A DNA stretch of 64,000 nt from Myxococcales bacterium. GTDB lineage: Bacteria > Myxococcota_A > Polyangia > Polyangiales > Polyangiaceae. The translations under genes and the position numbers were made by a program. Under the pieces are notes generated by a model, which was not told where the DNA came from, made no database searches, and saw only the letters and a list, made by a program, of their open reading frames with translations. The stretch lies in contig CAHJWM010000001.1 in NCBI GenBank assembly GCA_903642325.1, positions 1 to 64,000 of the forward strand, given 5' to 3'. Of the stretch, positions 10,291 through 57,217 are shown piece after piece (within the stretch, counting starts at the first letter, position 1; every line of letters starts with the position of its first letter).

Positions 10291-10405
10291 ATTTGACTTG
10301 ATGGTCGCGTGGCGCGCCGCAGCGCGCTCAGCCTTCGGCGTCTCAGACGTCTCCAGCGCCTGCAGCGTGGGCGTGGGCGCGGGCCGGCGCAGGGCTCAGC
10401 GCAGC

Positions 10406-16149: not shown

Positions 16150-16306
16150 GCGCGCTCGCCACACGGGCGGCGCGCCGCCCCATGCAACGGCAACGTGGGC
16201 CTTGTGTTTGGAGCCAAATGATCACGCTCGGTCGCCGCTTTCGCGTGCGCGCAAGCACCGCGTCGCCGGCACAGTCGTTGCTGCATGGCCAGTAAGGAGA
16301 TGACAG

Positions 16307-16828: not shown

Positions 16829-16873
16829 TTTCTAATTCGCCGACGGCAAGCGCCCGAGAGCGCAGGCGGCGGA

Positions 16874-16896
16874 GCCCGTACTCGGACTGTACGGGC
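16874..16896. terminator. Inverted repeat between convergent genes
   Basis: GCCCGTAC and GTACGGGC form a perfect 8-bp stem around a seven-base loop (TCGGACT). It sits between the stops of the hemerythrin gene and the convergent MscS gene, one base from the latter. There is no T-run on either side, so it may be a weak bidirectional terminator. Confidence 0.5.
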
Positions 16897-16897
16897 G

Positions 16898-39060: not shown

Positions 39061-39129
39061 TTAACCGGTCGGTCGAGCGTACCACCAGTTGGCGTTGGCT
39101 TCGAACGAACCCGGCGCACAGCGCAGCTC

Positions 39130-39420
39130 GTGATAGGCTCGACCGCGTGCTTTCGAACCGTCTTTCTCGGGTCGCTGTCCATCTCATTGTCGGCGTGCAC
39201 CATTGGCCGGTCAGAGCGTCTTTCGCAGCTGGAAGCGGCGCAAGGGCCATCGAATGCCGCGGTCGCGGGTGGTCCGATCGTGCCGCAAATTTCCCCCGAC
39301 AATAGCGAAGCACCCAAGCCCGCCGAGCCGCCCACTTCGAACAGCGTGTGGGTCCGCGGCTACTGGCATTGGGACGGCGTCCGTTACGTTTGGCAGGGCG
39401 GCCACTGGCGACACGATTGA
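39130..39420 (+). CDS. Small WXXGXW-type lipoprotein
   Basis: 96 residues from GTG 39130, which begins a signal peptide ending SISLSAC; an ATG at 39049 in the same frame would overlap the divergent gene and add an unlikely basic leader. After a Pro-rich linker the C-terminus reads SVWVRGYWHWDGVRYVW and ends QGGHWRHD, a YXWXXGXW/WXXGXW repeat like that of small periplasmic proteins in proteobacteria. Function unknown. Confidence 0.65.
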   Translation: MIGSTACFRTVFLGSLSISLSACTIGRSERLSQLEAAQGPSNAAVAGGPIVPQISPDNSEAPKPAEPPTSNSVWVRGYWHWDGVRYVWQGGHWRHD

Positions 39421-39491
39421 CGCGCTGGTGCTGCGAGCGGACGCGCTAGCCGCGATGCGGGCCGCACATTTTCCTGATAGAAGTGGCGCGC

Positions 39492-41915
39492 ATGTTGGGA
39501 GGCCTGTGGAGCAGAGCTTGGGATCGGATGGGCGGATTGCCAATCGCTAGCTGGATTCGACCGCACGTTTCGAAATTACGCCAAGCCGTCGTCTGCTTGG
39601 CGTTACTCGGGGGAGCGGCCTACTTCGCGTCGGTCGTCGATCCTCGGTACGCCATCAAAGACTGGTTGTTTTGGCGCTATGCGCGGTATTGGGCGTACGC
39701 CGCGCTATTCGCCGTTAGCTGCACGTGCGCTGGTCACCGCGCCCTCTCGCTGATCGCCGCGAGAAGAAGGCCGCTGCTCGAGCACTTGCTTTTTTGCTTC
39801 GCGGTCGGTCTGTTCATTTTTTATCTTGGCGTCGTCGGCTTCGGCTTGATCGGCGCGCTGGGAACGGCATTCGCGTTCATGTGGCCACTCGCGTTGAGCG
39901 GGTCCGGTGGCTGGAGTCTAGTTCACCACGTCCGAAAGCGCGTGCGTCGCGCGGCCTACTTGCGGGCACGAATTCCGGCACTGCAGCCGAGCCTCGTGTC
40001 ACGGCTGGTCACCGCCTTCGGCATTGCGAACTTGGTCATCCTGTACATGACCATCCTGCTCCCGGACAACGTTGGATACGACTCGCGTTGGTACCACTTG
40101 ACGATCGCGGAGCACTACGCGGCGGGCGGGCGGGTCGCAGCCTTCGCGGAAGGCTGGTATCAGGGGACGCTGCCGCACCTCGCGAGCTTCGTCTATACCT
40201 GGGCTTTTCTGGTCCCGGGCCGGCTTTTCGATCGCATCGAGTTGAGTGCGCACCTCGAGATGGTGGCGCTACTCGCCACGCTTGCGGGCGTCAGCGTGCT
40301 CATCCGCAGGCTGCTACCGCGCGTCCGGTCGCGGGGCGGGTGGGTCGCGTTTTTTCTGTTTCATCAGCTCTTGATGCAGTCGAACTTCGCCACCGGTAAC
40401 GACACATTCGGTGCGCTTTGGGCCGCGCCGGTGTTCATCGCTTTGCTCGACGCGTGGCCATTGTTGGCGCCGCGGGCCTGCGCATTACTGGGCGCGATGA
40501 TCGCGGGGGCGCTGAGCACGAAATATCAAACTATTTCGGCGCTGGTTTTTCCGGTACTGGCCGTCTCCGTCCGGGCACTGTGGGGAGCGGTTCGTCGACT
40601 TCAGCGCCCGGAACTACCCAAGATCGCGTGGCTTAGCGGACCACTGGCGGCCGGCGTCAGCTGCATCTTGCTCATGGGGCCACTGTGGCTCAGCAACTGG
40701 GTCTGGCATGGCGATCCGCTGTATCCGTTCTTGTATAAGCACCTGCATTTACGGCCGTGGACCGCGGATTCTGCTCATCTCGTCGAAACCGTTCTGGAGC
40801 CGGCGCTCTGGAAGCCGCGCGGTCCGTTGCTTGCGCGTATCAACGAGACTCTCCCGGTCTTGCTGAACTTCTCGTTCAAGCCCAATGACTTCGGCAATTG
40901 GAATGATCTCCTGCCGATGTTCGGTTCGCTGTTCACGTTGATCCTGCCCGCGCTCCCGTTTATCCGCTTGCCCCGCCGTGCCTGGGCCCTCGTGGTCGCG
41001 ACGCACGTCGGCGTGGGAGCATGGTATTGGACGCACCATCAAGACCGTTACCTGATTATGATCGTGCCTTGGATGGCGGCGGTCGTGGCTTCCGCCTGCG
41101 TGCTGGTCTGGCGGCTTGGGCTTTTGCCGCGGCTGGCGCTCCTTTGCATGATTGGTTTGGAGACAGTATGGGGCGGAATCGCCTCCTTCCTGCCCATTCA
41201 CCCGATGGTCGGCGACACGATCCTCAAGCGGGCGATCGATTTCATTCACTCCGGCTTCCGTTGGAACGGTGCTGACCGCTTTCGAATTTACGAGCCATGG
41301 TCGCTGGTCGGGCCCGCGTTGCCGAAAAACTCCAAGGTGTTGATACACGACGCCCGGCTGCACTTGGGCATCGGCACGATGTCCGTGTCTGACTTCGGCG
41401 GCACGTTTCAGGGCGGAATCAGCTATGGCCGCTGGGCTTCACCGGCGCAGATGTACAGCCACCTCCTCGGCATGGGCGTGACGCACGTCCTTTGGATACC
41501 GGGCTCGAGCGAGAGCAGTGACAGCCTAGCGGGGGAGCTGATGTTTTACGATTTCGTCAATCGTCAATTGGAGGAGCCGCTCGACATCGGCGGCCTGCAC
41601 GTCGCGCGCATGCCTCGACTCCCGGTGAAAGACGACGGCTGGCGCGACACGGTTGCGGTATTGGCGTGCGGCGGGGGTTACGACACCGGCGTCTACCACG
41701 TGGGGCAGCTCACCATTTCGTCGGTCGGCTCGACGCCTCTCGCCGAGTTTCCACGTCCTTTGTCAAGCCAGGAGCCGGGGGATTTTTCGAGCTTGGGCTT
41801 CGTTTTGAACGACCGCGGTTGTCACCCACCCTTGTCACCGACGACCAGCAAAGACTTCGTGCTCGCCGTGTCCCACGGCAATCTCGAATTCTGGGTCCGG
41901 CGGCGCGGCACTTAG
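39492..41915 (+). CDS. Large integral-membrane protein, glycosyltransferase GT-C-like
   Basis: About 807 residues with roughly a dozen hydrophobic helices in the first 530 residues and a soluble C-terminal part. The first extracytoplasmic loop after about helix five reads VGYDSRWYHLTIAEHYAAGG; an acidic residue (Asp) in this loop is typical of GT-C enzymes (PMT/ArnT type). The C-terminal domain from about 620 is mixed and not recognised. It opens the glycan island on the plus strand. Start ATG 39492 was preferred to GTG 39483. Sugar donor would be a polyprenyl-phosphate sugar; this is inference from fold and neighbours. Confidence 0.65.
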   Translation: MLGGLWSRAWDRMGGLPIASWIRPHVSKLRQAVVCLALLGGAAYFASVVDPRYAIKDWLFWRYARYWAYAALFAVSCTCAGHRALSLIAARRRPLLEHLLFCFAVGLFIFYLGVVGFGLIGALGTAFAFMWPLALSGSGGWSLVHHVRKRVRRAAYLRARIPALQPSLVSRLVTAFGIANLVILYMTILLPDNVGYDSRWYHLTIAEHYAAGGRVAAFAEGWYQGTLPHLASFVYTWAFLVPGRLFDRIELSAHLEMVALLATLAGVSVLIRRLLPRVRSRGGWVAFFLFHQLLMQSNFATGNDTFGALWAAPVFIALLDAWPLLAPRACALLGAMIAGALSTKYQTISALVFPVLAVSVRALWGAVRRLQRPELPKIAWLSGPLAAGVSCILLMGPLWLSNWVWHGDPLYPFLYKHLHLRPWTADSAHLVETVLEPALWKPRGPLLARINETLPVLLNFSFKPNDFGNWNDLLPMFGSLFTLILPALPFIRLPRRAWALVVATHVGVGAWYWTHHQDRYLIMIVPWMAAVVASACVLVWRLGLLPRLALLCMIGLETVWGGIASFLPIHPMVGDTILKRAIDFIHSGFRWNGADRFRIYEPWSLVGPALPKNSKVLIHDARLHLGIGTMSVSDFGGTFQGGISYGRWASPAQMYSHLLGMGVTHVLWIPGSSESSDSLAGELMFYDFVNRQLEEPLDIGGLHVARMPRLPVKDDGWRDTVAVLACGGGYDTGVYHVGQLTISSVGSTPLAEFPRPLSSQEPGDFSSLGFVLNDRGCHPPLSPTTSKDFVLAVSHGNLEFWVRRRGT

Positions 41916-42048
41916 CTCGCGGGGGTTCCGTCGGGCGTCTCGGCCATGCGGAGGCCCGGCGCCCAGTCTAAGAAAGAGCAGGGCAAGCTCGGCTTCCCTA
42001 TGCCCGGGTCCATTGACCCGCCGCCGGCATTCTGCTTGCTTCCAAGTC

Positions 42049-43065
42049 GTGACCGACGACACGGTATTAACTCAAGCAAAGGGCCCCGCCAAGCGCGGTT
42101 CGTCGCGCGCTAAAGCCATCATTGAGTGGTTCTGGCTCGGCGACGTGCTCGCCGAAAGGCGTCGCGCTCTACCCGAGCCCGGAGGGCGCGCGCTTTTACT
42201 CGCGCGCCGCGCTCAACAAAGCGCCGATCTGGCGCGCGAGCTGGCCACATCGGCAGAGTCTACCGACGCGCCGCCGCAAGCCAACGCCAGTGAGCTCTAC
42301 AGGCAATCGGCATACTGGGCCGCCTGCGCCATCGCGGCGCGTGACGGAGGCGCGCTGCATGCCGACTACGTCGAGTCTATCTGGGACGGCATCGGCGAAC
42401 CATTTTTACGCAAGGCCGTCGAAAGACCCGAGCGGGTCGAAGCGTTGCGAGCCGCATTACGCCTCGGTTCATTCGTTTACTTTGCCGAGCTCCCAGATGA
42501 CGAACACTTTTCGACTTTCGATGAGCTCCGAAAGCTGAGCGAATCGTTGATCAACGAGTTTTACGTGCGGGCTCATGCGCTGCAAGATGTCCAGCTCCGG
42601 CGAGCTTGGCGCCTGGGATTGCCCGTCCTGGCGATCGTCGCTTTGGCGTTCGGGCTCTCCGCGCTTGGCGACACTCGCGACCTTGCGCGGGGCAAGGAGT
42701 GGCGCGCAAGCTCGCGTTGGGGGAACGTAGGGTGCGAATCACCTGCACAGCAATGCGCAGAGAGCCCAGGCTTCTTCTTTCATACCAATGAAGAGAAGGA
42801 CCCTTGGATCGAATTCGACCTTGGCTCGTTACACCCGGTGTCGGTCGTGAAGGTCGACAACCGTCAGGACTGTTGTGTAGAGCGCGCATTTCCAATGTCG
42901 GTCGAGCTCAGCGTCGATCACAAGCATTGGAAAGAGGTAGCTCGTCGCGAGCAGGAATTTTCACACTGGACCGCTTCGTTCGACTCGAGCAAAGCTCGCT
43001 GGGTCAGGCTACGCGTGCACAAGGTGACCCATTTGCACCTCGATCGAGTGAAGATTTTGCCGTGA
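42049..43065 (+). CDS. Membrane protein with C-terminal F5/8-type (discoidin) domain
   Basis: About 338 residues from GTG 42049. The N-terminal 180 residues are soluble and helical, with a core of ELYRQSAYWAACAIAARDGG. One membrane helix follows at about 190-210 (LGLPVLAIVALAFGLSAL). The outer part (about 215-338) is an F5/8 type C-like beta sandwich: RGKEWRASSRWG, PWIEFDLGSLHPVSVVKV, FPMSVELSVDHKHWKEV and ARWVRLRVHKVTHLHLDRVK. Such domains bind glycans. So the predicted protein has its sugar-binding face outside and a helical domain inside. Its position between two membrane glycosyltransferase genes supports a link to the surface polymer. Confidence 0.72.
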   Translation: MTDDTVLTQAKGPAKRGSSRAKAIIEWFWLGDVLAERRRALPEPGGRALLLARRAQQSADLARELATSAESTDAPPQANASELYRQSAYWAACAIAARDGGALHADYVESIWDGIGEPFLRKAVERPERVEALRAALRLGSFVYFAELPDDEHFSTFDELRKLSESLINEFYVRAHALQDVQLRRAWRLGLPVLAIVALAFGLSALGDTRDLARGKEWRASSRWGNVGCESPAQQCAESPGFFFHTNEEKDPWIEFDLGSLHPVSVVKVDNRQDCCVERAFPMSVELSVDHKHWKEVARREQEFSHWTASFDSSKARWVRLRVHKVTHLHLDRVKILP

Positions 43066-43107
43066 AAGCAGCTCTCGGCTAGTCACCGGCGATCAACCTG
43101 CAGGCCG

Positions 43108-44694
43108 ATGCAGACCTCACGACGGCAGAAGCGCTTCACGCCCTTCATGCGCGCTATCGCGCCGCGAGGACCGACCGCGCAGCGTGTGCTCGGTGGCCTG
43201 CTCTCGCTGGTCATCGTGATCGTTTCCGTGGCCCCCATCGCCCGCTTCATCGGTATCGCGCTAGCGCGCATCAATTACCCGTACGAGCTCGAGTGGCTCG
43301 AGGGCGGCGCTATCGGCCACATTCAAGTCGTGCTGTCGGGTGAGCCTATTTATCGCCCGCCATCGTTCGAGTTCACGCCATTTCTGTATCCACCGCTGTA
43401 CTATTACGTCTCTGCGCTGCCATCACTGCTGCTCGGGGCCGGCCATTTGGCGCCGCGTCTGGTGTCGTTCGTCTCGGTGCTCGGCTCGTTCGTTCTGGTC
43501 GCCCGCTGGGTACGCGAGGAGACGGGCGATGCGGTGGCGGGCGTCGCGGCCGCCGGTCTCCTGAGCTCGGTGTACGAGATCACTTGCTGTTGGTTCGACT
43601 TAGCCCGCGTCGATTCTTTGTTTTTGTTGCTCACCCTGAGTGCAAACTTTGCCGGCCGGACCACCCGTACGGCGGCGGGGGCGGCCCTGACCGGGGCACT
43701 GATCGCCTGCGCTTGTTTCACCAAGCAGCTCGGGATCCCCCTTGCTCTGCCGGGACTGATCTTCGTGGGCCTGCGTTCCATCCGTTTGGGCTTGATCGCG
43801 ACGGGCGTTGCCAGCGCGTTGCTCGCGATAGCGGGCCTCGGCTTTTACGTCAGCTCTTCCGGCTGGATTTTTTATTATCTCTTCACGTTGCCCGCTCGCC
43901 ATCGAATTCAATGGTCGCGCTTCCCGCACGACGCGCAGACTTACTTTCTCAGCAGCACATTTCTGCTCACTGCAAGCGGTGTCGCACTCCTGTGCGGTTG
44001 CGGCTTTGCGCGCTCGGCCCGCAAAGAATGGTTGTTCAATGCTCTCTTCGTGGGGCTGGCCTGTATTACGTCGTTTCTGCCGCTTCTCAAGGCTGGCGGC
44101 TATCCCAACGGGCTGATCCCCGCCTACGCCGGGCTGGCCCTAGCGGCGGGTATTCAGCTCGGGCTGCTGCGGCGTGGCAGCTCGCCTGGCTCGGGTAATC
44201 TGGGGCCTCGTTTGCTTGCCTGTCTGCTGGTCACATTTCAATGTCTGGCTTTGACCTATGACCCGGCCATCGCGCTCCCAACGCGCGCAGATCGGGCTGC
44301 TAACGATGCCGCCGTAGCGCGGATGCAGAGGCTACCGGCGCCGGTCTGGGTCACGGCGTCTTGCAACTACAATCGGCTGGCGCAGCCCCACCACGGCATT
44401 CACCTGGATACGGGGGCGCTGTCCGACGTGCTGGCGGGTGGCGGTCGCGAAGCCGAGCAGCTCCGGGATGAAATGAGAAAGGTGATCGGCGAGCACCATT
44501 TCCGCACCATTGTCTTAGACCGTGCGGATGGGTTCTTGCCAATCGACATCGTGAAGCTGATCGGACGAGAATACGTCGAACGCGGCTCGGTGATGCGGGG
44601 TGTCCCCGACGACGTCGCCTGGCCAAAGACCGGTGCCGCGGTTCGACCCGACACCATTTGGATGCCCCGCACACGCGCGGCACATGCTCATTGA
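43108..44694 (+). CDS. PMT/GT83-like membrane glycosyltransferase
   Basis: 528 residues, with about ten hydrophobic helices up to residue 390 and a soluble C-terminus. N-terminal loop INYPYELEWLEGGAIGH carries the acidic pair (Glu-x-Glu) seen in bacterial dolichyl-phosphate-mannose-like mannosyltransferases, and FTPFLYPPLYYYVSALP is characteristic of the PMT_2-like group. Loop CCWFDLARVDSLFLL follows. It probably transfers a sugar from a lipid-phosphate carrier outside the membrane. Converges with the next membrane glycosyltransferase gene at 44720. Confidence 0.75.
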   Translation: MQTSRRQKRFTPFMRAIAPRGPTAQRVLGGLLSLVIVIVSVAPIARFIGIALARINYPYELEWLEGGAIGHIQVVLSGEPIYRPPSFEFTPFLYPPLYYYVSALPSLLLGAGHLAPRLVSFVSVLGSFVLVARWVREETGDAVAGVAAAGLLSSVYEITCCWFDLARVDSLFLLLTLSANFAGRTTRTAAGAALTGALIACACFTKQLGIPLALPGLIFVGLRSIRLGLIATGVASALLAIAGLGFYVSSSGWIFYYLFTLPARHRIQWSRFPHDAQTYFLSSTFLLTASGVALLCGCGFARSARKEWLFNALFVGLACITSFLPLLKAGGYPNGLIPAYAGLALAAGIQLGLLRRGSSPGSGNLGPRLLACLLVTFQCLALTYDPAIALPTRADRAANDAAVARMQRLPAPVWVTASCNYNRLAQPHHGIHLDTGALSDVLAGGGREAEQLRDEMRKVIGEHHFRTIVLDRADGFLPIDIVKLIGREYVERGSVMRGVPDDVAWPKTGAAVRPDTIWMPRTRAAHAH

Positions 44695-44719
44695 ACGCGC
44701 CTAGGCGCCGCGGCGGGGG

Positions 44720-46369
44720 TCAGCTATGGCCAGCGCACTCCGGTCGCTCTTTGCGTAGATAAAGCTGCACGGTGCGGCCGCCTCGGCCCGTGACGGCGCC
44801 CAGCAAGCAATAGTCTTGAGCGAGAATCTCCGCTAATTCAGGGACCTGTTTCATCCCGAAATTGGAAAGCGCCGCGGGATCATCGAGGATCAACGGCGGT
44901 CGAGCAAAGCGAATCTCCGCCGCAACGGTCGCCCGCGAGTCACGAGCTACGTACGCGGCGTTCGGCTGACCCCAGAAGGGCGGCACCACCCCGGCCACGA
45001 AATGCGAGGTCACGTAGCGTGTGATTGGCCGGCGCTGACATGAAATATAGAGATCGGCGTCGAACCCCCATGCGAACAGGCCGTCGCTCGGCTTCGTGTA
45101 GCGATCGACTTCGTCACAAATGGCATCTGGCCGTGCGGGCGCCCACGAGCCGCTCCGTTGCTCGGTGGCCATGTTCGATATTCGCCTCGTCGCGCCGAAC
45201 CAAGTGATGGCTGTCATCACCGCGCCCAATCCTGCGTACCCGAGCTTTCGTCCGAGCGCTGGGCGCGCGCGCAAAGCCTGCTCCGCTCGCAGGCCGACGA
45301 CCATCCCGACCCACGGGGCCACGATCAGAAAGTAATGCGGCCAAAAACGCATGGTCGAGAGCGCAGAGGCCATCATCGAGATGCCAATGATGGCGCTCGT
45401 CGTCTCGAAGCCGACGCGGGCGTATGCGGCAAGCAGACGACGCGGACTGAACGAGTCGATCTCGAACAGGGGGCTGACGAGCGCGGCGGCCAATGGCAGT
45501 CCGATCGCAAGCGCGGTGATCGGCTGATCCTGCGCCCACGCGAGCACGGCCTTGAGCTTCTCGGCGTCGCGATAGGGCGCCATGTAGACGTCCATGTTGT
45601 AAGTAAAGAACCAGTACACGAACGTGCCCAGTGCGTGATTGAACGCGTACAGCGCGAGCACGGCGGCGGCGGTGGCGCCCCAGCCCAGAGCGAACTTTGC
45701 CAGCCGCACCCATGCGGCTCTGTTCGGTGTGCCCTGAGCGCCGAAAGCCCAAGCGAACACCCATAAAAAAAGCGGAAACACCAATAACGCCGAGGTCTGC
45801 TTGGCCAGCATCGCCAAGCACGCGAATGCGCCCGCGAGCATCAAATAGGCCCCACGTCGCCGCTCGTTCATGCCGAAGTTTACGGCGAGCGCCACCCAGC
45901 CCACGGCGCACAGCGCGAGAGGTACCGCCACATGCTCGCCCCCCAATGACAGTCCCGCGCCTGGCGGCATGCCATACTCGCACACATAGCCGAAGATCCC
46001 GCCCGAGAACACGCCCGCCAGCGGACGCCGGGCCGCCGCTCCCGCAAAGAAACTGCTGGCGGTCGCGAGCAATGCGGCCACCAACGTACAGACGCGGATG
46101 CCCACCCAGCTGTACGGGCCGAAAATCTTCTGGATCAACGCGGCGTACCAATAAAGCAGAGGCCCGCGATGACATATGGCGTCCACGTACGGTAGCCAGT
46201 GATTTTGAATCAGGCGTGTTGCAAACGCGACGATGTGCCCATCATCGAAGCCCACTCCCTCGGTGTAATGCTGCAGGAACCAGCCGTGTACGAAGACATT
46301 CGCAGCTGCAATCGTGAGTGCCGCGATGGCCGTGATTATCCACTCGGTGGAGGGCCGGGTCCGCTTCAT
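44720..46369 (-). CDS. PMT-like membrane glycosyltransferase
   Basis: 549 residues on the minus strand. One helix at 10-30, then the loop YTEGVGFDDGHIVAFATRLI with Asp-Asp in the first external loop, and HRGPLLYWYAALIQKIFG after it, as in PMT_2/GT39-like enzymes. About ten further helices follow, and then a soluble C-terminus with ITRYVTSHFVAG. Start ATG 46369. A DPM-like glycosyltransferase gene lies divergently upstream, so the 190-bp gap between them may hold a shared promoter. Donor and acceptor sugars cannot be predicted. Confidence 0.75.
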   Translation of the reverse strand: MKRTRPSTEWIITAIAALTIAAANVFVHGWFLQHYTEGVGFDDGHIVAFATRLIQNHWLPYVDAICHRGPLLYWYAALIQKIFGPYSWVGIRVCTLVAALLATASSFFAGAAARRPLAGVFSGGIFGYVCEYGMPPGAGLSLGGEHVAVPLALCAVGWVALAVNFGMNERRRGAYLMLAGAFACLAMLAKQTSALLVFPLFLWVFAWAFGAQGTPNRAAWVRLAKFALGWGATAAAVLALYAFNHALGTFVYWFFTYNMDVYMAPYRDAEKLKAVLAWAQDQPITALAIGLPLAAALVSPLFEIDSFSPRRLLAAYARVGFETTSAIIGISMMASALSTMRFWPHYFLIVAPWVGMVVGLRAEQALRARPALGRKLGYAGLGAVMTAITWFGATRRISNMATEQRSGSWAPARPDAICDEVDRYTKPSDGLFAWGFDADLYISCQRRPITRYVTSHFVAGVVPPFWGQPNAAYVARDSRATVAAEIRFARPPLILDDPAALSNFGMKQVPELAEILAQDYCLLGAVTGRGGRTVQLYLRKERPECAGHS

Positions 46370-46559
46370 GACCGCGAGAGGAAAACATGCCTAACGCCCG
46401 GTTGCATTGGCCTAAAGGCACGGCTTGGGTGCTTTTATCGACCAAGCGCCACGCGCGCTCCGCGAAGAAAGGTCCAATGCCCCCGCTGAGCTGAGATTCG
46501 CGGTCGTCGGTGGTAATGCACTGGTAGAATTCGAGGGACGCGCTATAAGCGGCCGCACT

Positions 46560-47258
46560 ATGCTTCGAAGCATCGTTTTGCCCGCGTTCAACGAATCCGG
46601 CTACATCGCAGAAATGGTGGCTCAGGCCGTTCGAGCGGGCGAAATGCGCTCGGATCCGTTCGAGGTGATCGTCGTCGACAATGCGTCGACCGACGACACC
46701 ACGACCATCGTCGAACGCCTGGCCCAGGCGGATTCCCGCATCAGCCTCATTCGCCACCCCGAAAATCGTCTGTACGCAATGAGTTGCTTGAGCGGCACCA
46801 AAGCGGCCAAGGGCGAACGCGTGTTCATTCTCGACTCCGACGGGCAGCACCCCGCCGCGGACATCTGGAAGTTCGACGCCAAGCTGGACGAAGGCGCGGA
46901 CTTCGTTTTTGGCTGGCGTGTCAAACGCGCCGAGCCGGCGCAACGCCTCGCGATGTCGAAGTTCCTGCTTGGCCTGACCAAGTTCTACATCGGCTTCGAC
47001 CTGCATGACGTAAATTGCGGGATCCGGGGCTTCAATCGCCGTTTTGCCGACGTGCTCGAGATCAAGCACCGAGTGAATTTCGTAAACCCAGAGTTCTTCG
47101 TCCGCGCGAAGCTCGCCGGGCTACGGGTGACCGAGGTCCAAATCGCGCAGGAGAAACGCAAAGCCGGTATCTCGAGCCATGAATTCGGGAGGCTATGGCG
47201 CATCTTTCAGAGCGTGCGCGGCACGTTGAAAAGCCTGTCGGAGGAGCTGCCTCGTTGA
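46560..47258 (+). CDS. DPM-like family 2 glycosyltransferase
   Basis: About 232 residues. ATG 46560 begins the usual N-terminal strand SIVLPAFNESGYI; earlier in-frame codons would add unrelated sequence. The GT-A nucleotide-sugar site is VIVVDNASTDDTT, and the metal-binding DxD is DSDGQHP (residues 92-98). GFDLHDVNCGIRGFNR and the following loop match dolichol-phosphate-mannose synthase relatives. No C-terminal membrane helix is seen, so it would act at the cytoplasmic face as a soluble or peripheral enzyme. It likely makes a polyprenyl-phosphate sugar used by the membrane glycosyltransferases nearby. Confidence 0.88.
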   Translation: MLRSIVLPAFNESGYIAEMVAQAVRAGEMRSDPFEVIVVDNASTDDTTTIVERLAQADSRISLIRHPENRLYAMSCLSGTKAAKGERVFILDSDGQHPAADIWKFDAKLDEGADFVFGWRVKRAEPAQRLAMSKFLLGLTKFYIGFDLHDVNCGIRGFNRRFADVLEIKHRVNFVNPEFFVRAKLAGLRVTEVQIAQEKRKAGISSHEFGRLWRIFQSVRGTLKSLSEELPR

Positions 47259-47288
47259 ACCTGCGGGGCCGCCGCATGGTCGACGCGT

Positions 47289-48983: not shown

Positions 48984-49132
48984 GGAGCTCCATGGTCGTA
49001 GGATCAGCGCGTTATAGGAGGGAACCCGCGGCCGGCTGTCAATTGCTCGAGCTGCGCGCTCGCTCGAACTGCCCTGGGCGCCGCACCGTTGACCTTGACT
49101 CAGCGGTCAAACGCGGGGAAATCAAGCGGCGA

Positions 49133-49741
49133 ATGAACCTCTATCAACGCGTCTTGGGCACGCCGTTCGTCTACAACCGCATTCGACCGCTGGCGGTGGG
49201 TGGTATCGACATGACGCCATTTTACGATCGCGTGGGGGCAAGCGCGGAGGACGTGATTCTGGACGTTGGTTGCGGCACGGGCGACGCTTTGCGTTACTTG
49301 AGCGGCTTTTCACGCTACGAAGGTATCGATACGGATGACGTCGCGCTCGGGTTCGCGCGAAAAGCGTACGGCGCGCGGCCCAACGTGTCTTTTGCCTGTC
49401 AGATATGTACCGCGGAGGACGTGGAGAGGATCGCGCCGTCGCGGGTGTTGTTGTGCGGCCTCTTGCACCACCTGTCGGACGATCAGGTGCTTGCGCTACT
49501 CGGCGCGCTCAAGTCGTCGCCGCGGCTTCGGCGTATCGTGACCTCCGACATCGTGTACCTCGACCGAAGCCTGATCAGCAATTTTCTAGCGAGCATGGAC
49601 CGCGGCAAGTTCTGCCGTCGCCGCGAGCAATTCGAAGCGTTGGTTGCCCGAGCCGAGATGAAAGTCGTCGAATCCGCAATCGTTCCGTGTCGGCCCCGGA
49701 CGGGCTTGGCCAAGTATCTGATGATGACGATTGAACCGTGA
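49133..49741 (+). CDS. Class I SAM-dependent methyltransferase
   Basis: About 202 residues from ATG 49133. Motif I is ILDVGCGTG (residues 42-50), with the acidic motif II region in YEGIDTDDVALG. LLCGLLHHLSDDQVLALL resembles the post-I segment of Methyltransf_11/25 proteins. No other domain. It is probably a glycan, lipid or O-methyl decorating enzyme, judged by the surrounding glycosyltransferases. It stands on the plus strand, convergent with the DUF2079 gene with 12 bp between stops. Confidence 0.82.
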   Translation: MNLYQRVLGTPFVYNRIRPLAVGGIDMTPFYDRVGASAEDVILDVGCGTGDALRYLSGFSRYEGIDTDDVALGFARKAYGARPNVSFACQICTAEDVERIAPSRVLLCGLLHHLSDDQVLALLGALKSSPRLRRIVTSDIVYLDRSLISNFLASMDRGKFCRRREQFEALVARAEMKVVESAIVPCRPRTGLAKYLMMTIEP

Positions 49742-49753
49742 TTGGAGGCCCAC

Positions 49754-51673
49754 TCAAGGAGCTGCGAAGCCGAGCCGCGTCAGCGCGAGTCGCGTTTCGG
49801 GATTCTCCGCCCCGCGCGCGAACAGATAGAATTCGTCGAACGCGCTGGTGACGAGCCGGTATTGATGGTCGGCGAATGTATTGGTCAACGGCGTCCGGAG
49901 CGAGCTTACTTCACGTGTGCTGAGTAATATGTAGTCGGGCTCGCCGTACGGCCGAGATAGGTCGTAGGCCGCAACTCGATTGGAGACATGCGATAAGAGA
50001 TAGGCGGTTACGCCGATGCTCGCGTTGGCGGGCAACCTCTTCAACACGGAACGCAGGCTGTCGTATCTCGACTGCCCCCACGGCGTCATCTGCACCACGC
50101 TTGCAGTGGCACCGCCAAACCCCTCCGGACGTAAAAACGTACCGTAGTCATAGCTATGGCTGAGCTGAGTGATCGTCAGGGTAACGAGCAGCGCCACGTA
50201 GCGCGTGCGCCCCGGGCCCTGGCGCCGGTGCTTTTCGAGGATGTAGACGAGCGCGATGAAACAGCCCGGCAGCCACACCACACTATCCATGTAGTTGGGC
50301 GAGCCGTTGGGCCAGAATTGAGTCCCTGCGGAGGTAAACAAAATACCCGGGATGAGCAGCGGCCAGCAGCTAGGCTCCAGCACGGGCAGCACAGCGAGGG
50401 GTGCCAAGGCATGGAGAACCGCGGCGATTTTGACCGCTCGCACCAAATCCCACGCAAAAAATACCGGGTTTCTCCAGCACGCGCTCAATGCGAGGACCAG
50501 TGAAGAATTCTCGAAGGCCGCGCCCCCGCGTTGCGCAAGAACCACGTTCAGGGCAATCACGGGCAAGGCCAACGCGACCAGCCTCACGCCGACGCCCCGT
50601 CGGGAACGCGATACGATGAGCATCGAGCCCAAACCTAGCGCATTGAGCGGGCCCGCTTCCGAGATCGAAAGCAGTGCGATCAAAGAAACCACCAGTAGCA
50701 CGCGCCGCTCGCTTTCGATGGCGTAGTACAAAGTGAAAGAGAACAGCGTCACCGCGGGCAACCAGCCAAACCCGGCGAAGAGCGCGCCGTGTTGTGGCGC
50801 CGAGAGCAGGTAGCCAAGCCCGATCCAAAGCGCAGTCGCTCGACCGAGCTTGCGCGACGCGGCCAGATACAGGGGAAAAACGGCGCTGCCGGCAAGCACA
50901 GCTTGCAGCCAGAGCAGGGTCTCTGCGCCAGGCCGAAGCGCGTAGAGTGGGATGAATCCTATCGCTCCGTATTCCGCGTGCACGGTCAGCCAGTTACCTC
51001 CCGCCTTGCCAAAATACGCGGGAGCGGCGAAGTAATGACCGTGCAGCAAGTTGGCCATCACGTTGTCGCGAATGCCGATGTCTGCCGGCAACTCTTGAAT
51101 TAGCCGATGATGCACGACCGCGTAATGACCGAGTAACGAGACGAACCCAACCGTGCCAGCTAGCAGCAGCACCGAGCTGGCAAAAGGCGGGAGTCGGAGC
51201 CGCTCGATTCGCGACCAGAGCACGGACGGCGGACCGCTTCTGCGCTCCGCCAGCGCTCGCGCTAGCAATGTCCTGAAAATTACGCCGAAGGCCGCCAACA
51301 CCACCAGGTAATAGAGCGGCTTATCCTGGGCAATCTGGCTTTCGAACAGGCCGGGCACGATGAACAGCAGGGCCAGCGGCGCGGTCAGCGTAGCCGCTCG
51401 CTCCAGAAACTGGAGCTCACGCCTCCGCCAAAGCATCAATAGGCCAACCACCGCCGGGAATGTGAGCCCCAGTGCGAGGGAAAGCAGCAGCAGGGCACGG
51501 CCGTGCTCTCCCAGGGTGTTGCGCTCGGCGAACACGGTTCGAAGTGGCGAGGTCAGCGAAAGCGTCTGACAGGTGAGGACCAGCGAAAACCCCACGCAGC
51601 CCAGCGTTGCCAGGGCCAGAGCCAATTGGCGAAACCGACTCGGTGCATCGCGCAATCGATCGTTGGATATCAC
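49754..51673 (-). CDS. DUF2079 membrane protein
   Basis: About 639 residues with roughly 12 helices. The DUF2079 signature region is present: ELPADIGIRDNVMANLLHGH, NWLTVHAEYGAIGFIPLYAL and ETLLWLQAVLAGSAVFPLYL. A soluble C-terminal domain ends in DEFYLFARG. DUF2079 proteins are often encoded with glycosyltransferases and are suspected GT-C-type enzymes. GTG 51673 was chosen: it lies 10 bp after the stop of the GtrB-like gene (51684); a TTG at 51706 would overlap that gene by 23 bp. It is paralogous to the DUF2079 gene at 52756-54771. Confidence 0.85.
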   Translation of the reverse strand: MISNDRLRDAPSRFRQLALALATLGCVGFSLVLTCQTLSLTSPLRTVFAERNTLGEHGRALLLLSLALGLTFPAVVGLLMLWRRRELQFLERAATLTAPLALLFIVPGLFESQIAQDKPLYYLVVLAAFGVIFRTLLARALAERRSGPPSVLWSRIERLRLPPFASSVLLLAGTVGFVSLLGHYAVVHHRLIQELPADIGIRDNVMANLLHGHYFAAPAYFGKAGGNWLTVHAEYGAIGFIPLYALRPGAETLLWLQAVLAGSAVFPLYLAASRKLGRATALWIGLGYLLSAPQHGALFAGFGWLPAVTLFSFTLYYAIESERRVLLVVSLIALLSISEAGPLNALGLGSMLIVSRSRRGVGVRLVALALPVIALNVVLAQRGGAAFENSSLVLALSACWRNPVFFAWDLVRAVKIAAVLHALAPLAVLPVLEPSCWPLLIPGILFTSAGTQFWPNGSPNYMDSVVWLPGCFIALVYILEKHRRQGPGRTRYVALLVTLTITQLSHSYDYGTFLRPEGFGGATASVVQMTPWGQSRYDSLRSVLKRLPANASIGVTAYLLSHVSNRVAAYDLSRPYGEPDYILLSTREVSSLRTPLTNTFADHQYRLVTSAFDEFYLFARGAENPETRLALTRLGFAAP

Positions 51674-51683
51674 TTGCAAAGAC

Positions 51684-52658
51684 TCAGTCCGCAGGCGGCG
51701 TTGCAACCGAAGAGTTCACGTTGATTTCTTCGGCGGTGATGTAAAGCGGGCGACGCTTAATCTCTTCGTAAATGCGGCCCACGTATTCGCCGAGCACTCC
51801 CGTCATGAGTAATTGCGCAGAGGCGCCCAAGGCGACCGCAATCATGATCGTGGGCCAGCCCTGTACGACGCCACTACCGAAAAAGCGCTCGTAAATCGCC
51901 CAAGCGGCCGTGAGCATGGCGACCAAGCCCGAAGCAACCCCGAGCCATGTCGCAAAGCGCAGAGGCACGACCGAAAAGGATGCGATGCCGTCGACCGCGA
52001 ACCGCACCATCTTCTTCAAGGGGTATTTCGTTTCACCGGCAAAGCGCGCCGGACGAGCATAGTAGACGGCGGTTTGGCGGAAACCGACCCACGCCACCAT
52101 GCCGCGAACGAATCGATGCCGCTCGCGCAGCGCACGCATGGCGAGCACCACCGGGCGCCCGATCAATCGAAAGTCCCCGGCGTCGGCAGGAATGGTTACA
52201 CCGCCCAACATCGCCCGTAACAGCCGATAGAAGACCGTGGCCGTGAGTTTCTTGAACAACGTCTCCCCGTGGCGCTTGGTGCGGACCCCGTAGACCACGT
52301 CATAGCCTTCACGCCAGCGATCGATCATCTCGCTGACTACCTCCGGAGGGTCTTGCAGATCTGCATCCATGATGACGACGGCCTCGCCTTCAGCCCGGTC
52401 GATGCCAGCAGTGATCGCCATCTGGTGGCCGAAGTTTCGAGAAAACGAGATCACTTTGAAGCGTGTCTCTTCCGAAGCCAGCTTTTTCAGTTGCGCGAGC
52501 GACTGATCGTTCGAGCCGTCGTTCACGAACACGACCTCCCACGAGTCGATGCGCAGCTCCCAAACCTTTATCACCTCGCGCAGGCGACGCGAGAGCTCCG
52601 GAATGACCTCTTCTTCGTTGAAGATGGGGATTACGACAGTCAGGGTCGGCCGCGGCAT
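51684..52658 (-). CDS. GtrB-like polyprenyl-phosphate glycosyltransferase
   Basis: 324 residues. GT-A domain: LTVVIPIFNEEEVIPELS, FVNDGSNDQSL, FSRNFGHQMA and DADLQDPPEV (residues 98-107) with the metal-binding DxD-like pair. SRNFGHQ is a hallmark of GtrB/ArnC-type enzymes. Two C-terminal helices (about 231-258 and 264-290) anchor it. It should transfer a hexose or related sugar from a nucleotide donor to undecaprenyl phosphate. It is encoded between two DUF2079 genes on the same strand, and only 97 bp separate its start from the upstream DUF2079 stop, so the three are probably one operon. Confidence 0.9.
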   Translation of the reverse strand: MPRPTLTVVIPIFNEEEVIPELSRRLREVIKVWELRIDSWEVVFVNDGSNDQSLAQLKKLASEETRFKVISFSRNFGHQMAITAGIDRAEGEAVVIMDADLQDPPEVVSEMIDRWREGYDVVYGVRTKRHGETLFKKLTATVFYRLLRAMLGGVTIPADAGDFRLIGRPVVLAMRALRERHRFVRGMVAWVGFRQTAVYYARPARFAGETKYPLKKMVRFAVDGIASFSVVPLRFATWLGVASGLVAMLTAAWAIYERFFGSGVVQGWPTIMIAVALGASAQLLMTGVLGEYVGRIYEEIKRRPLYITAEEINVNSSVATPPAD

Positions 52659-52755
52659 ATTGAGGAACTCTATACAGGGAAGCTTTGCGGCTGCGAAGGC
52701 TCACGGTGCGAAGGAGAAAAGCGACGTTGCCCGCCATCCCCCGCCCTAGCCGAGC

Positions 52756-54771
52756 TCAGGGGGCCTCAGGCGTGACGCGGAGATGAATGCCCAGATGCTG
52801 CAGCGCAGCTTCTGTCTCGGGAGATTCGTAGCCGCGCTTGAACAGGAAAAACTCACGCTCACCCTTGGCGAAAAGCCCATACTTCTCCCTGCTGAATTTG
52901 TCACGGAGAGTGTTCCTCAGGTCACCACTGACCTCACCGTCGCTGAGGAAGACGAAGTCGACCGGACCGACGTCGTAGCGGAAAACGTATGCTTCCTTGC
53001 GAGCCGAGATGTGGGGATTCAATGTCTCGGTCGAGACCACGCTGGCTTCGCGAGGGATCTTGCCCACGACGGAGAGCATGTCCGCGTAACGCTTGCGTGC
53101 GGCGTCTGGTAGCTCGAACGAGACGCGCCCGAACCCGCCTACGAAGCTATCGCGCTGCAGGACCGCGCCAAAATTGAAGCTGTGACTCAGCAAAGTCACG
53201 CTGAGCGCTCCGAGCACAGCGAGCAGCCTCACCCGGCCCTGGTGGCCTTCTCGAATCACGAACAGGCTCATCGCGGTCGTCGCGAATAGAAACGGAACCC
53301 AGTGCGTCGTGTATTGAAAAGCGATCGACAGCGTCGGCCAATAGCCCGTCGTCATCAGCGTAAACACCGAGCCAGGAACGAGCAGTAGCAGAAACGGCAG
53401 ACGCCTGATGGGCAACAACACGAGCGGTGCCAGCATGTGCAACGCGTACGTCAGTTTGGGACCGCGGACGAAGGTAGACAACGCGTAAAACGGATTTGAC
53501 AAAAGTGTCTTGACCACGTTGCCGTAGCCAGTCTTTCCGTCCGCAAAGAGCTCGTTATACATGCTGTCGAACCACCAAGGTCCAGCCCAAGGCATGATCA
53601 CGAACTTGTCGATGACGAACCATACCGCTGCCGCCAGAGCGAGCGTGACTCCGAAGCGGACGCGCAGGCCCGTGACGAACAAAAATACGCCTAAAAAGGC
53701 CAGGCCCACCGCGATGTCTTCACGCAACGCGAACAGCAGCACGATCATCAGCACGCTGAGCCAAGTCTTCCGTGACGCGATGCCGTAGAAGAGCCAGAAG
53801 TAAAAAAAGACACCGAGCGGCAGCCAGTGAAAGTCGTAAAAGTTCGCGCCATGCAGAGGCGCGAACAGCACGTAGGCAAGCACCAAAACGACCGCGGGCC
53901 AGCGCGAGAGCATGGTCCGCGCGAAGAGATACAGCGGGATCACGGCGCCACCAAGAAACACGGACTGGAGCAAAAGTAGCGTCTCGGCCCGTGGCGCGAG
54001 TGCGTAGAGGGGCGCGAACAGGACCATCGCATACTCGGCATGCGTGGACAGCGAGTTGTGGTGCCCAGGCCCGAACATCACGGGTGACTGAAAGAATCGC
54101 CCCTTGATGGTGTTGTACATCAGGTTGTCGAAGATCCCGAGATCGAACGCGCTGGTCAGGATCTGACGATGGTGGCGGATCGTGAAAAACCCGGTGTAAG
54201 TGGCGTAGCCGACTCCCGCCAGCACGACGACCAGCGGCGCGAGAATCGGCGTGACTCGCGCGCCCACGTCGTACGCGAACGCAAGCGGACGGCGCACGCT
54301 CTTTCCACCTGCGATGACGATTAGCTCGGCAATGCAAATCCGCAGCAGCCGTTCGAGACAAAACCCGAATAGCGTCAAGCAGATCAGGTACGCAATCGGG
54401 CGCTGCTGGCCGAGCTGCCAGGTGAAAAGCGCTGGCAGCGCGAAGGCAAGGCCCGCCGGTGCGGCCACGCGAGCTGCCGACGCGATGAACGGGGCTGTGC
54501 GCTGCCGCAGGCCCAGGAGGGACAGCGCAGAAAAGAGCGCAGGCAGGAACCCGAGCGTGCTCGCTAGAGCGAACGAAGAGCTCGAGACGGGCAGCGCATT
54601 CTGCGTGAAATGAACGACGCGCTCGTCCGCGGGCAGGCGAGCATAGTAAACGAACTGTGCCAGCGATTGGCCGATGAGCGCTAACGCAAAGAGCGATGCA
54701 ATCGTGTGCTGCGTCCGATCCGCGGGCGGCAAGACCCGAACCGTCGAACCGGCTGACTCGCTGGCGACCAT
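52756..54771 (-). CDS. DUF2079 membrane protein (second paralogue)
   Basis: 671 residues from ATG 54771, with about 12 helices. The family blocks are clear: AFDLGIFDNLMYNTIKGRFF, NSLSTHAEYAMVLFAPLYAL and ETLLLLQSVFLGGAVIPLYL, and the C-terminal domain ends EFFLFKRGYES. DLGIFDN is the classical DUF2079 string; the other paralogue has IGIRDN at the same place. Both likely share the GtrB lipid-linked product. Transcribed divergently from the LPG-synthase-TM gene. Confidence 0.88.
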   Translation of the reverse strand: MVASESAGSTVRVLPPADRTQHTIASLFALALIGQSLAQFVYYARLPADERVVHFTQNALPVSSSSFALASTLGFLPALFSALSLLGLRQRTAPFIASAARVAAPAGLAFALPALFTWQLGQQRPIAYLICLTLFGFCLERLLRICIAELIVIAGGKSVRRPLAFAYDVGARVTPILAPLVVVLAGVGYATYTGFFTIRHHRQILTSAFDLGIFDNLMYNTIKGRFFQSPVMFGPGHHNSLSTHAEYAMVLFAPLYALAPRAETLLLLQSVFLGGAVIPLYLFARTMLSRWPAVVLVLAYVLFAPLHGANFYDFHWLPLGVFFYFWLFYGIASRKTWLSVLMIVLLFALREDIAVGLAFLGVFLFVTGLRVRFGVTLALAAAVWFVIDKFVIMPWAGPWWFDSMYNELFADGKTGYGNVVKTLLSNPFYALSTFVRGPKLTYALHMLAPLVLLPIRRLPFLLLLVPGSVFTLMTTGYWPTLSIAFQYTTHWVPFLFATTAMSLFVIREGHQGRVRLLAVLGALSVTLLSHSFNFGAVLQRDSFVGGFGRVSFELPDAARKRYADMLSVVGKIPREASVVSTETLNPHISARKEAYVFRYDVGPVDFVFLSDGEVSGDLRNTLRDKFSREKYGLFAKGEREFFLFKRGYESPETEAALQHLGIHLRVTPEAP

Positions 54772-54877
54772 GGGGCGCTGTTTTATGTTGGCGCCGCGGG
54801 CTCTGCAATCTCGCCCGGCTTTTTTGGAGTGGGCCGGCGCTTGACCGAAGCCGACGCCCCTGCTTCTGTCGCTGCCC

Positions 54878-55984
54878 TTGACTCACGAATCTTCGACGCC
54901 GGCCGCGAATACCGCGCCCCCGGTCCGGACCCGGGGCGCCCTTCGCAGGTACGCGCCGCGCGTGGTCGTGTCGCTATTGATCGCTGGTGCGTTCGTTTGG
55001 TTGTTCCACCGGGGTGGCCTGCCGCTGCTGCCGCCGGCCGGCACGATGGCCATGCTGCAACCCTGGGCTATCCCGGCCTACGCACTGTTGACGCTGCTAG
55101 CCGTGTTCTTCCGCGTGCATCGCTGGCTAGCGCTGCTTCGCCCAATTGCCCCGGATGTCTCCGGACGGCGCGTGATCGGCATCGGTTTGGTCGGCATCGC
55201 GGCGATCATGTTCGCGCCGCTGCGGATGGGCGAGGCGGCGCGGCCCTACCTGTTTGGCCGAGACGGCAAGGTGAGTTTTTTCCAGGCCCTCGGTGCGGCG
55301 GGCGCGGAACGCGTCGTTGACGGCTTGCTGCTGACGTCGGTGAGCGCCGTCGCCATGGCGCTGTCGACACCTATCGCACCCTTACCGAATCACTTGGGGA
55401 CGATGCCGTTGCCCGTCTCGATCATCCCACGCGCCATTTACCTGGCGTGCGCCGTGTTCGCGTGCGCATTTTTAGCGCTCGCGGTGTTTTATGGCGCCCG
55501 TGGCTTTGCTCGCCGCGTTACGGACGGGCTGCTCCGTCCCATATCGCCCGGGCTCGCCTCATTCGTCACCGCGACTCTCGAGCGCCTAGCCGACGGCTTG
55601 ATGGTACTAGGCTCGCCGGGAAACCGTTGGCGCTTCTTCAGCGAGACGTTGTCGTGTTGGGCCTGCCAGTTCTTGTCGCAATGGGTGTTGATGCGTGGCT
55701 GCGGCATCCAGGGCTCGTTCGCCGAGGCGTGCGTCTCGCTGGGCGTGCTCGGGTTGGGCGTGATTGTCCCGGCCGGCCCGGGCCTGTTCGGCGCGTTTCA
55801 GATCGGCACGTACTCGGGCCTCGCGCTCTTCTTTCCACTGCCTATTCTCGTCTCTTCGGGCGCCGCCATGGTCTTCGTCAGCTACGCCGTTCAGCTCGTT
55901 TCGATGGCCCTTTCACTCGCGCTCGGCCTGTGGCTCCTCGCTCGTCCCAGTCCCGCGGGCGGCCGCCCCCGCGGCCTGAGTTAG
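54878..55984 (+). CDS. LPG-synthase transmembrane (UPF0104) family protein
   Basis: About 368 residues from TTG 54878. Eight or so helices. Conserved segments: FFRVHRWLALLRPI, MFAPLRMGEAARPYLFGRDG, GAERVVDGLLLTSVS, LGVLGLGVIVPAGPGLFGAFQIG and SYAVQL. The RxGE and GPG(L)FG motifs are typical of the UPF0104/YbhN/AglD-like family, which includes lipid flippase and glycosyltransferase-associated proteins. A GTG at 54962 would start just before the first helix; the longer N-terminus is low-complexity. It may be the flippase for a lipid-linked intermediate of the island; inference only. Confidence 0.8.
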   Translation: MTHESSTPAANTAPPVRTRGALRRYAPRVVVSLLIAGAFVWLFHRGGLPLLPPAGTMAMLQPWAIPAYALLTLLAVFFRVHRWLALLRPIAPDVSGRRVIGIGLVGIAAIMFAPLRMGEAARPYLFGRDGKVSFFQALGAAGAERVVDGLLLTSVSAVAMALSTPIAPLPNHLGTMPLPVSIIPRAIYLACAVFACAFLALAVFYGARGFARRVTDGLLRPISPGLASFVTATLERLADGLMVLGSPGNRWRFFSETLSCWACQFLSQWVLMRGCGIQGSFAEACVSLGVLGLGVIVPAGPGLFGAFQIGTYSGLALFFPLPILVSSGAAMVFVSYAVQLVSMALSLALGLWLLARPSPAGGRPRGLS

Positions 55985-56083
55985 CAACGCGCACGATACC
56001 AGCGCAAAAATTATGGGCGGTTGAGCAACGGAGTCGCGCCAAGCATTGTTACTTTGCGAACGGACCGCTAGCCTTCCCTGCAC

Positions 56084-57217
56084 ATGGCACTCTCTCTCGA
56101 CGAGCAACTGGCGGCGCTTCCCTCTGATGTTCAGGCTTTGCTGAAGCAGCATCGGTTCGACGCCGAACACTTCAAGCGGCTGGCGGCGCGGCTAGGGACC
56201 GAGAGCGCGGAGGACAACTTCGTCAAAGGCCAAATCAGCCCGCCTCACCCTGAGGATCTGGAGGAGCTACCCACCGTCGGCAGTCCGGAACATGCGCAGC
56301 TCGTCGCGCTCGGGGAGAGCGCGCTCCGGGAAGGCAAGGTCGCGCTGCTCGTGCTTGCGGGTGGGATGGCCACTCGCATGGGCGGCGTGATCAAGGCGCT
56401 GGTCGACGCTATTCCGGGCAAAAGCTTTCTGGATCTGCGCCGGGCCGAGATGCGCGCCTTGGAGCGCAGGTACGGCGTCGCGCCCCCACTCTGGCTGATG
56501 ACCAGCCATGCCACGGACGCCGGGATTCGCGCCGCCCTCGGCGCCGACCTCGAGGGCAAGTCCGTCGCCACTTTCACGCAGCACCTGTCGTTGCGCCTCA
56601 CCCCGACCGGGGACGTGTTTCTCGACGAACATGGCCGGCCGAGCGAGCACGCACCGGGTCACGGCGATCTACCGGACGCGTTGCGCGAGAGCGGTCTTTT
56701 GGCCTCGTTCGTCGAGCGCGGCGGCAAGGTGATCATGATCAGCAACATCGACAACCTGGGCGGGACGCTCGACCCCGCCACGATCGGCTTTCACTTGCGG
56801 CACGGCAAGCCGCTCACGGCGGAGGTCGTAGACAAGCTGCCAACCGACCGCGGCGGCATTCCCGCCTACGTAGACGGCCGGCTCTGCATTTTGGAGGAAT
56901 TCCGTATTCCCCCGAGCTTCGATCCGAAGACGGTGCGAGTGTTTGCGACGAACGTATTCTATGTCGATGCCGCCACGCTGCTCAGTTTGGACATGAAGTG
57001 GAGTTACTTCACCGTTCATAAAAAGGTGGACGATCAGCCCGTCGTGCAATTCGAACGATTGGTGAACGAGCTTTCGAGCTCCTTGGCTACGGCCTACGTG
57101 CACATGCCGCGCGACGGCGCTGAATCCCGCTTTTTGCCTGTAAAGGACAATGCGGAGCTCGCGCTACGTGAGCCGGAGATCCTGGCCGTGGCGCGCGCCA
57201 GAGGCATCGTTTCGTGA
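56084..57217 (+). CDS. UDP-sugar pyrophosphorylase (UDPGP family)
   Basis: 377 residues from ATG 56084. The nucleotide-binding loop is LVLAGGMATRMGG (residues about 89-101), then KSFLDLRRAE, LWLMTSHATD, SLRLTPTGDVF, APGHGDLPDAL, MISNIDNLGGTLDP and FFVTN-like FATNVFYVD. The GHGDL and NIDNLG strings are signatures of eukaryote-type UDPGP/UAP enzymes, which join UTP with glucose-1-phosphate or GlcNAc-1-phosphate. Which sugar is used cannot be decided by eye. It probably supplies the nucleotide sugars for the island. The last codons overlap the start of the SppA-like gene by four bases (GTGA). Confidence 0.88.
   Translation: MALSLDEQLAALPSDVQALLKQHRFDAEHFKRLAARLGTESAEDNFVKGQISPPHPEDLEELPTVGSPEHAQLVALGESALREGKVALLVLAGGMATRMGGVIKALVDAIPGKSFLDLRRAEMRALERRYGVAPPLWLMTSHATDAGIRAALGADLEGKSVATFTQHLSLRLTPTGDVFLDEHGRPSEHAPGHGDLPDALRESGLLASFVERGGKVIMISNIDNLGGTLDPATIGFHLRHGKPLTAEVVDKLPTDRGGIPAYVDGRLCILEEFRIPPSFDPKTVRVFATNVFYVDAATLLSLDMKWSYFTVHKKVDDQPVVQFERLVNELSSSLATAYVHMPRDGAESRFLPVKDNAELALREPEILAVARARGIVS

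Follow-up and report, generated by a model that had tools for sequence, protein, structure and literature searches.

The window analysed here is a stretch of 64,000 nucleotides (contig C1, positions 1-64000) of a 5.83-Mb genome in 140 contigs, and its host is a member of the Polyangiaceae, a relative of the soil myxobacteria whose relatives found by sequence are Polyangiaceae metagenome-assembled genomes (MAGs). Using Pfam and NCBIfam profile searches, we found an island of eleven genes (G1-G11) between 39.4 and 56.1 kb of the window; gene calling with a program trained on codon usage recovered the same set. The island encodes six GT-C or GT-C-like membrane proteins (counting two DUF2079 proteins), two GT2 glycosyltransferases, an LPG_synthase_TM protein, a methyltransferase and a membrane protein with a lectin-like domain. 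An earlier note on this DNA had listed GT-C-like enzymes, DPM-like and GtrB-like transferases, two DUF2079 proteins, an LPG-TM protein, a methyltransferase, a discoidin-domain protein and a UDP-sugar pyrophosphorylase (UDPGP), and every gene on that list was found; its four GT-C-like enzymes correspond to G1, G3, G4 and G6, as judged from the fold of G1, PMT_2 scores and a profile match to AftB. The features of the region, including transmembrane (TM) segments, are as follows.

37471-39060, minus strand: T0, transglutaminase-core protein, left-flank core gene (Pfam PF01841)
39049-39420, plus strand: small WXXGXW-type putative lipoprotein, left flank (gene also present in genomes G005 and G006)
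39420-56083, no strand assigned: inserted island, from the T0/WXXGXW side to UDPGP (flank gap in relatives versus the window)
39483-41915, plus strand: G1, GT-C-like membrane glycosyltransferase, 810 aa, ~10 TM segments and a C-terminal soluble domain (fold search)
42013-43065, plus strand: G2, helical cytoplasmic domain, one TM segment and F-type-lectin-like domain (profile, model and motif)
43108-44694, plus strand: G3, GT-C-like, PMT_2 (PF13231, 26.2 bits, cut-off 26.1)
44720-46369, minus strand: G4, GT-C-like, PMT_2 below cut-off (PF13231, 24.5 bits, cut-off 26.1)
46425-47258, plus strand: G5, DPM-like GT2 without C-terminal TM segments (PF00535, E 1.2e-26; best NCBIfam match PgfS/ArnC-type)
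47289-48983, minus strand: G6, AftB-like GT-C (profile to AftB 9dlf, E 1.1e-18)
48992-49741, plus strand: G7, class I S-adenosylmethionine (SAM) methyltransferase (PF13649, E 2.6e-9)
49754-51706, minus strand: G8, DUF2079 membrane protein (PF09852, E 3.3e-29)
51684-52658, minus strand: G9, GtrB-like polyisoprenyl-phosphate glycosyltransferase, GT2 domain and 2 TM segments (GtrB sll0501 5ekp, E 1.7e-86; PF00535)
52756-54771, minus strand: G10, DUF2079 membrane protein (PF09852, E 6.5e-57)
54878-55984, plus strand: G11, LPG_synthase_TM (UPF0104), candidate flippase (PF03706, E 1e-21)
56084-57217, plus strand: UDPGP-family UDP-sugar pyrophosphorylase, right-flank core gene (PF01704, E 2.2e-40)
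57214-59796, plus strand: S49 peptidase, right-flank core gene with a 4-bp overlap with UDPGP (PF01343, E 4.3e-65)

Insertion at a conserved gene junction

T0 and UDPGP were found on one contig in 24 relatives, divergently oriented in 23 of them, and the gap between the two genes was 0.12-1.23 kb in 19 of the 24. Because the flanks lie less than 1.3 kb apart in these 19 relatives and 17.0 kb apart in the window, the block at about 39.42-56.08 kb has been inserted into a conserved gene junction. The empty site was seen in two genomes of the same genus (G005 and G006), where a 0.36-kb gap holds the WXXGXW-type lipoprotein gene alone; this gene is on the minus strand in both genomes and on the plus strand in the window (39049-39420), which hints that the edge of the island has been locally inverted. 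Third-position GC content of the island genes was slightly below that of the right flank, and no integrase was found at the island. A tRNA-associated mobile island was rejected, since no tRNA gene lies close by and the sole one is a tRNA-Lys at 31160, and so was a repeat-bounded one, since the flanks share no long repeat and just a 13-bp inverted match. The junction was likewise rejected as a glycosyltransferase-specific hotspot, because unrelated cargo occupies it in other relatives: 4.1 kb with Ser/Thr protein kinases in genome G022 (L159), 7.5 kb with a PutA-like protein and an inward-rectifier K+ channel in G003 (L158), and 10.3 kb with an HNH protein and unknowns in G001 (L157).

The right end, previously set at 57217, was moved to about 56.08 kb so as to leave out UDPGP, which is a core gene of the flank. 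Its homologue was present in 55 of 59 relatives, nearly all of which have just one strong copy, and never adjoined homologues of G1, G2 or G10; the S49 gene follows it directly in most of the relatives examined, as in the window, and a divergent T0 homologue precedes it in many. On account of this single-copy status and the conserved T0 and S49 neighbours, UDPGP was rejected as island cargo. No GalU over the cut-off was found in this genome, so UDPGP looks like a housekeeping gene that probably serves the whole cell, in place of the dedicated nucleotide-sugar step that it had been taken for.

A membrane-anchored F-type-lectin-like protein

G2 is predicted to consist of a helical cytoplasmic domain (residues about 30-195), a TM segment (about 200-219) and a periplasmic lectin-like domain (about 220-350). 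The side N-terminal to the TM segment carries the more positive net charge in most of 22 homologues, and the lectin domain is therefore predicted to be periplasmic. When the profile of G2 homologues was searched against solved structures in the PDB, the top matches were FBP32, the lectin domain of lectinolysin, fucolectin 2j1r (the S. pneumoniae fucolectin-related protein) and Anguilla agglutinin 1k12. F-type lectins bind fucose through the motif HX24RXDX4(R/K) (PMC5712786), and G2 carries H257-X26-R284-Q-D286-X4-R291, in which the H-R spacing is 26 against the published 24. Among 51 distinct homologues, the motif was found in 48, with a spacing of 26 in 38, and the cysteine pair C287-C288 of G2 was kept in 41. 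The calcium motif h2DGx is absent from G2, which has CESPAQQC at its place, while DG is retained in several homologues; we call the domain F-type-lectin-like because of this loss in the window copy. Secreted proteins with the same fucose motif were also found (L138, L141, L144 and L146), and these are ordinary extracellular lectin-domain proteins outside the gene set described here.

The AlphaFold model of G2 contains a confident jelly roll (predicted local distance difference test score, pLDDT, 85) that matched lectinolysin 3le0 with a Foldseek E of 3.9e-10 and a VIA Z of 17.1 (root-mean-square deviation 2.0 A over 126 residues); the fold search bears on the lectin domain and hardly covers the N-terminal one, a helical part of ~195 residues whose family was not recognised. 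Related modules of the carbohydrate-binding module (CBM) type CBM32 scored about equally against the model, so the fold alone leaves the sugar unfixed. With the F-type lectins (the lectinolysin domain, Anguilla agglutinin and the S. pneumoniae fucolectin-related protein) G2 thus has in common the fold (Z about 17), the H..RXDX4R motif and the cysteine pair, but it differs from them in its motif spacing, in lacking the calcium motif, in its inner-membrane anchor and in its linkage to GT-C genes. The earlier label of discoidin-domain protein agrees with the Pfam call, but the closer kinship is with F-type lectins, and the label misses both the TM anchor and the helical domain.

Linkage of the lectin to GT-C genes and recurrence of the gene set

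Among 36 places in relatives holding a G2 homologue, 19 were less than 2 kb from a DUF2079 gene or a G1-type GT-C gene against 0.1 expected, an expectation that assumes uniform placement, while the genomes are related and the 36 places are hence not independent events. Relatives of G1, G2, G7, G9, G10 and G11 co-occur in other Polyangiaceae at sites other than the T0/UDPGP junction. The gene-order check proposed in the earlier note thus found the set again, and the lack of co-occurrence that it had named as grounds for doubt was not seen. The order is methyltransferase, GtrB-like, DUF2079, lectin, G1-type, GT2-methyltransferase and LPG_TM in L118; DUF2079, lectin, other genes, G1-type and LPG_TM in L119; and DUF2079, G1-type and lectin in L140, and an AftB-like gene accompanies the lectin in L112 and L126. 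For G3 no homologue, and for G4 few, were found in the regions of relatives that were fetched. No description of a lectin/GT-C pairing in myxobacteria was found in the open-access literature.

Two open reading frames (ORFs) of ~1415 codons (L120:6161-10414 and L122:6311-10555) join a GT-C-like module, a GT87 module and a complete G2-like module. Neither contains a stop codon or an N, and both have a third-position excess in the modules and not in the linkers; because the upstream modules end without a stop, we regard the fusion as real on sequence grounds, seen in two MAGs that are close relatives. A separate second lectin protein lies ahead of the fusion at L120:5175-6164. Another lectin-GT-C fusion, in L151, was not used because it spans a run of N. 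The order in L130 is DUF2079, a single 567-aa ORF (9320-11023) with a G2-like lectin and a G7-like methyltransferase, and LPG_TM, with overlapping gene ends; a methyltransferase of the G7 family thus stands beside DUF2079, lectin and LPG_TM genes, and we accepted this adjacency but regard the fusion as no more than possible, since the two parts are separated by a short linker that may contain a GTG start and the topology would be odd. GT2 and methyltransferase domains were also found fused in both orders (L118:13414-14940 and L119:4128-5588), suggesting that the gene sets in L118 and L119 may make methylated sugars.

GT-C-like genes and candidate charging and flipping genes

G1 had no Pfam or NCBIfam match and no sequence relative in the PDB. 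Its model was of low confidence (pLDDT 57), and the first 13 Foldseek matches were all GT-C enzymes (STT3, AftA, ArnT and EmbA), with nothing else confident after them; D200, W203 and H205 were invariant in an alignment of 19 homologues. The profile similarity between G1 and G4 by hhalign was weak. Invariant aspartates were also found in the alignments of G4 (D42-D43) and G6 (D53-D54). The likeness of G6 to the arabinosyltransferase AftB (E 1e-18) is partial, covering about 260 residues of its N-terminal half. DUF2079 had no PDB sequence match; D210 of G10 was invariant in 26 homologues, and hhalign in local mode gave a weak match of 42% to the AftB-like G6, global-mode scores being meaningless, for the control too. 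The assignment of the DUF2079 proteins to the GT-C type is thus weakly supported, and no paper describing DUF2079 as a glycosyltransferase was found in the open-access literature.

G9 is a clear GtrB relative by its profile match to sll0501, a GT2 enzyme with C-terminal TM helices, while the start of G5 is probably downstream of the listed TTG, as the gene caller begins it at 46560. No GtrA (PF04138) was found in the island, and the genome copies are solely on contigs C67, C13 and C60. LPG_synthase_TM (UPF0104) proteins are proposed flippases in archaeal glycosylation (PMC5898192), and the family recurs alongside GT-C genes, including in a second cluster on contig C15; by analogy, G11 is likely to be a flippase replacing GtrA.

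Other glycan loci and neighbouring genes

Profile searches found no Wzx, Wzy or ABC-2 exporter among the genes at 39.4-57.2 kb, so that the earlier statement to this effect holds for the island. It does not hold genome-wide, as contig C13 carries a classical cluster with Wza at 65.0 kb, Wzy_C at 76.0 kb and Wzx at 77.5 kb together with GT2, GT4 and acyltransferase genes. Because of this cluster and the GtrA copies on three contigs, the island is one of several glycan loci in the genome. The second cluster on C15 (L161, G000:C15:3000-22999, at 7870-18251) encodes a G1-type GT-C, Gmd (544 bits, cut-off 415), LPG_synthase_TM, two GT4 proteins, a GT2, a GNAT protein and a 600-aa multi-TM protein without Pfam match. 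Gmd shows that the GDP-4-keto-6-deoxymannose branch exists in the cell, which is compatible with, but no proof of, a lectin ligand of the fucose or rhamnose type.

Elsewhere in the window, we found an 805-aa sulfatase that has a stretch of collagen-like repeats close to the N terminus (12618-15035). A CheB-CheR-PAS fusion and, next after it, a hybrid histidine kinase (18710-23345) form an arrangement typical of myxobacterial complex signalling; a methyl-accepting chemotaxis protein gene was found at 35732, and motA/motB lie at 59.8-61.6 kb.

Proposed mechanism and alternative explanations

We consider it reasonably probable that the island is a multi-enzyme relative of the three-component extracytoplasmic glycosylation systems, equipped with an acceptor-binding lectin that acts in trans. 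The product of such a modular set would be a glycan built or decorated at the inner membrane, on its periplasmic side. G9, and perhaps G5 too, would transfer a sugar from a nucleotide donor onto polyprenyl phosphate in the cytoplasm, G7 may methylate the sugar or a cap prior to export, G11 would flip the lipid-linked sugar in place of GtrA, and as many as six enzymes of the GT-C type (G1, G3, G4, G6, G8 and G10) would pass sugars to a periplasmic acceptor, of which the lectin domain of G2 may hold a fucose-like residue near the GT-Cs. G2 would thereby be a trans-acting counterpart of the CBMs that work in cis, as fused parts of EmbC, AftD and the C. youngae ribofuranosyltransferase.

Like the three-component systems (GtrA/GtrB/GtrC-type and C. 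youngae ORF12/14/15; PMC11127046), the island has a polyisoprenyl-phosphate glycosyltransferase, GT-Cs and a candidate flippase and no polymerase, but it differs in having as many as six GT-C-type proteins rather than a single one, a pair of GT2 enzymes for the charging step, LPG_synthase_TM for GtrA, a methyltransferase and a separate TM-anchored lectin. The GtrB-type plan of the earlier note (lipid-phosphate sugar, flip and transfer outside) accordingly fits the gene set, with a candidate in place of the canonical GtrA at the flipping step; the island would work like a three-component system and is not called a member because GtrA is not in the locus. With EmbC, AftD and ORF12 it shares the coupling of a periplasmic sugar-binding domain to a GT-C, but the domain is F-type-lectin-like and is carried by a protein of its own, which has one TM segment and a helical cytoplasmic domain, being fused in L120 and L122 only.

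Several observations weigh against this reading. The model of G1 is poor, the GT-C character of DUF2079 depends on the G10-G6 profile similarity and one conserved aspartate, the island lacks GtrA, and the flippase role of LPG_TM is a family-level proposal (PMC5898192). Nearly half of the G2 homologues have no DUF2079 or G1-type gene nearby, no fucose gene lies inside the island, and the L130 lectin ORF runs into the methyltransferase, which would put a SAM enzyme outside the membrane. The C. youngae CBM binds the acceptor and was dispensable under the conditions tested (PMC11127046); for this reason an accessory role of the lectin is, by analogy, as likely as an essential one. A stronger version, in which this inner-membrane lectin family is a dedicated trans subunit of Myxococcota GT-Cs that captures an acceptor bearing fucose or a methyl sugar on the periplasmic side and so sets the specificity or chain length of glycan assembly there, is possible, and we put it forward tentatively, with the balance tilted somewhat against it.

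The sizeable helical cytoplasmic domain of G2, of no recognised family, and the lectin homologues that stand apart from DUF2079 and G1-type genes would also suit a sensor, whose periplasmic domain detects a fucosylated glycan and whose helical domain signals to enzymes or to a regulator. We regard this as unlikely, given that the whole module, helical domain included, is tightly adjacent and fused to GT-C domains and that the island has no regulator gene. The PMT_2 matches of G3 and G4, together with the presence of STT3 of the oligosaccharyltransferase among the best fold matches of G1, raise the different idea that the GT-Cs use polyprenyl-phosphate sugars to glycosylate proteins that are secreted or lie on the surface. 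PMT_2, however, is a wide GT-C family that includes many polysaccharide enzymes, the STT3 match (about 12% identity) reflects the common GT-C fold, and no target protein was found in the island, so that a protein-linked glycan seems improbable to us. We give similarly little credence to the view that membrane glycosyltransferase genes with no relation to each other and no common product have merely accumulated at an insertion-tolerant junction: mixed gene orientations, the other cargo in G001, G003 and G022, the missing GtrA and the scarcity of G3 and G4 homologues all fit it, but relatives of G1, G2, G7, G9, G10 and G11 are repeatedly co-located elsewhere in other genomes.

In bacteria, GT-C enzymes decorate surface glycans on the outer side of the inner membrane. 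To our knowledge, acceptor recognition by GT-Cs is understood in few cases, those with built-in sugar-binding modules, and the surface glycans of Polyangiaceae have hardly been studied. If the proposed extracytoplasmic system is correct, a separate membrane lectin that accompanies GT-Cs would make the choice of acceptor modular, and the lectin gene would serve as a marker for finding such gene sets. It would also place DUF2079 and the bacterial LPG_synthase_TM family in a likely context, and would suggest that Polyangiaceae surface glycans contain fucose-like or methylated sugars.

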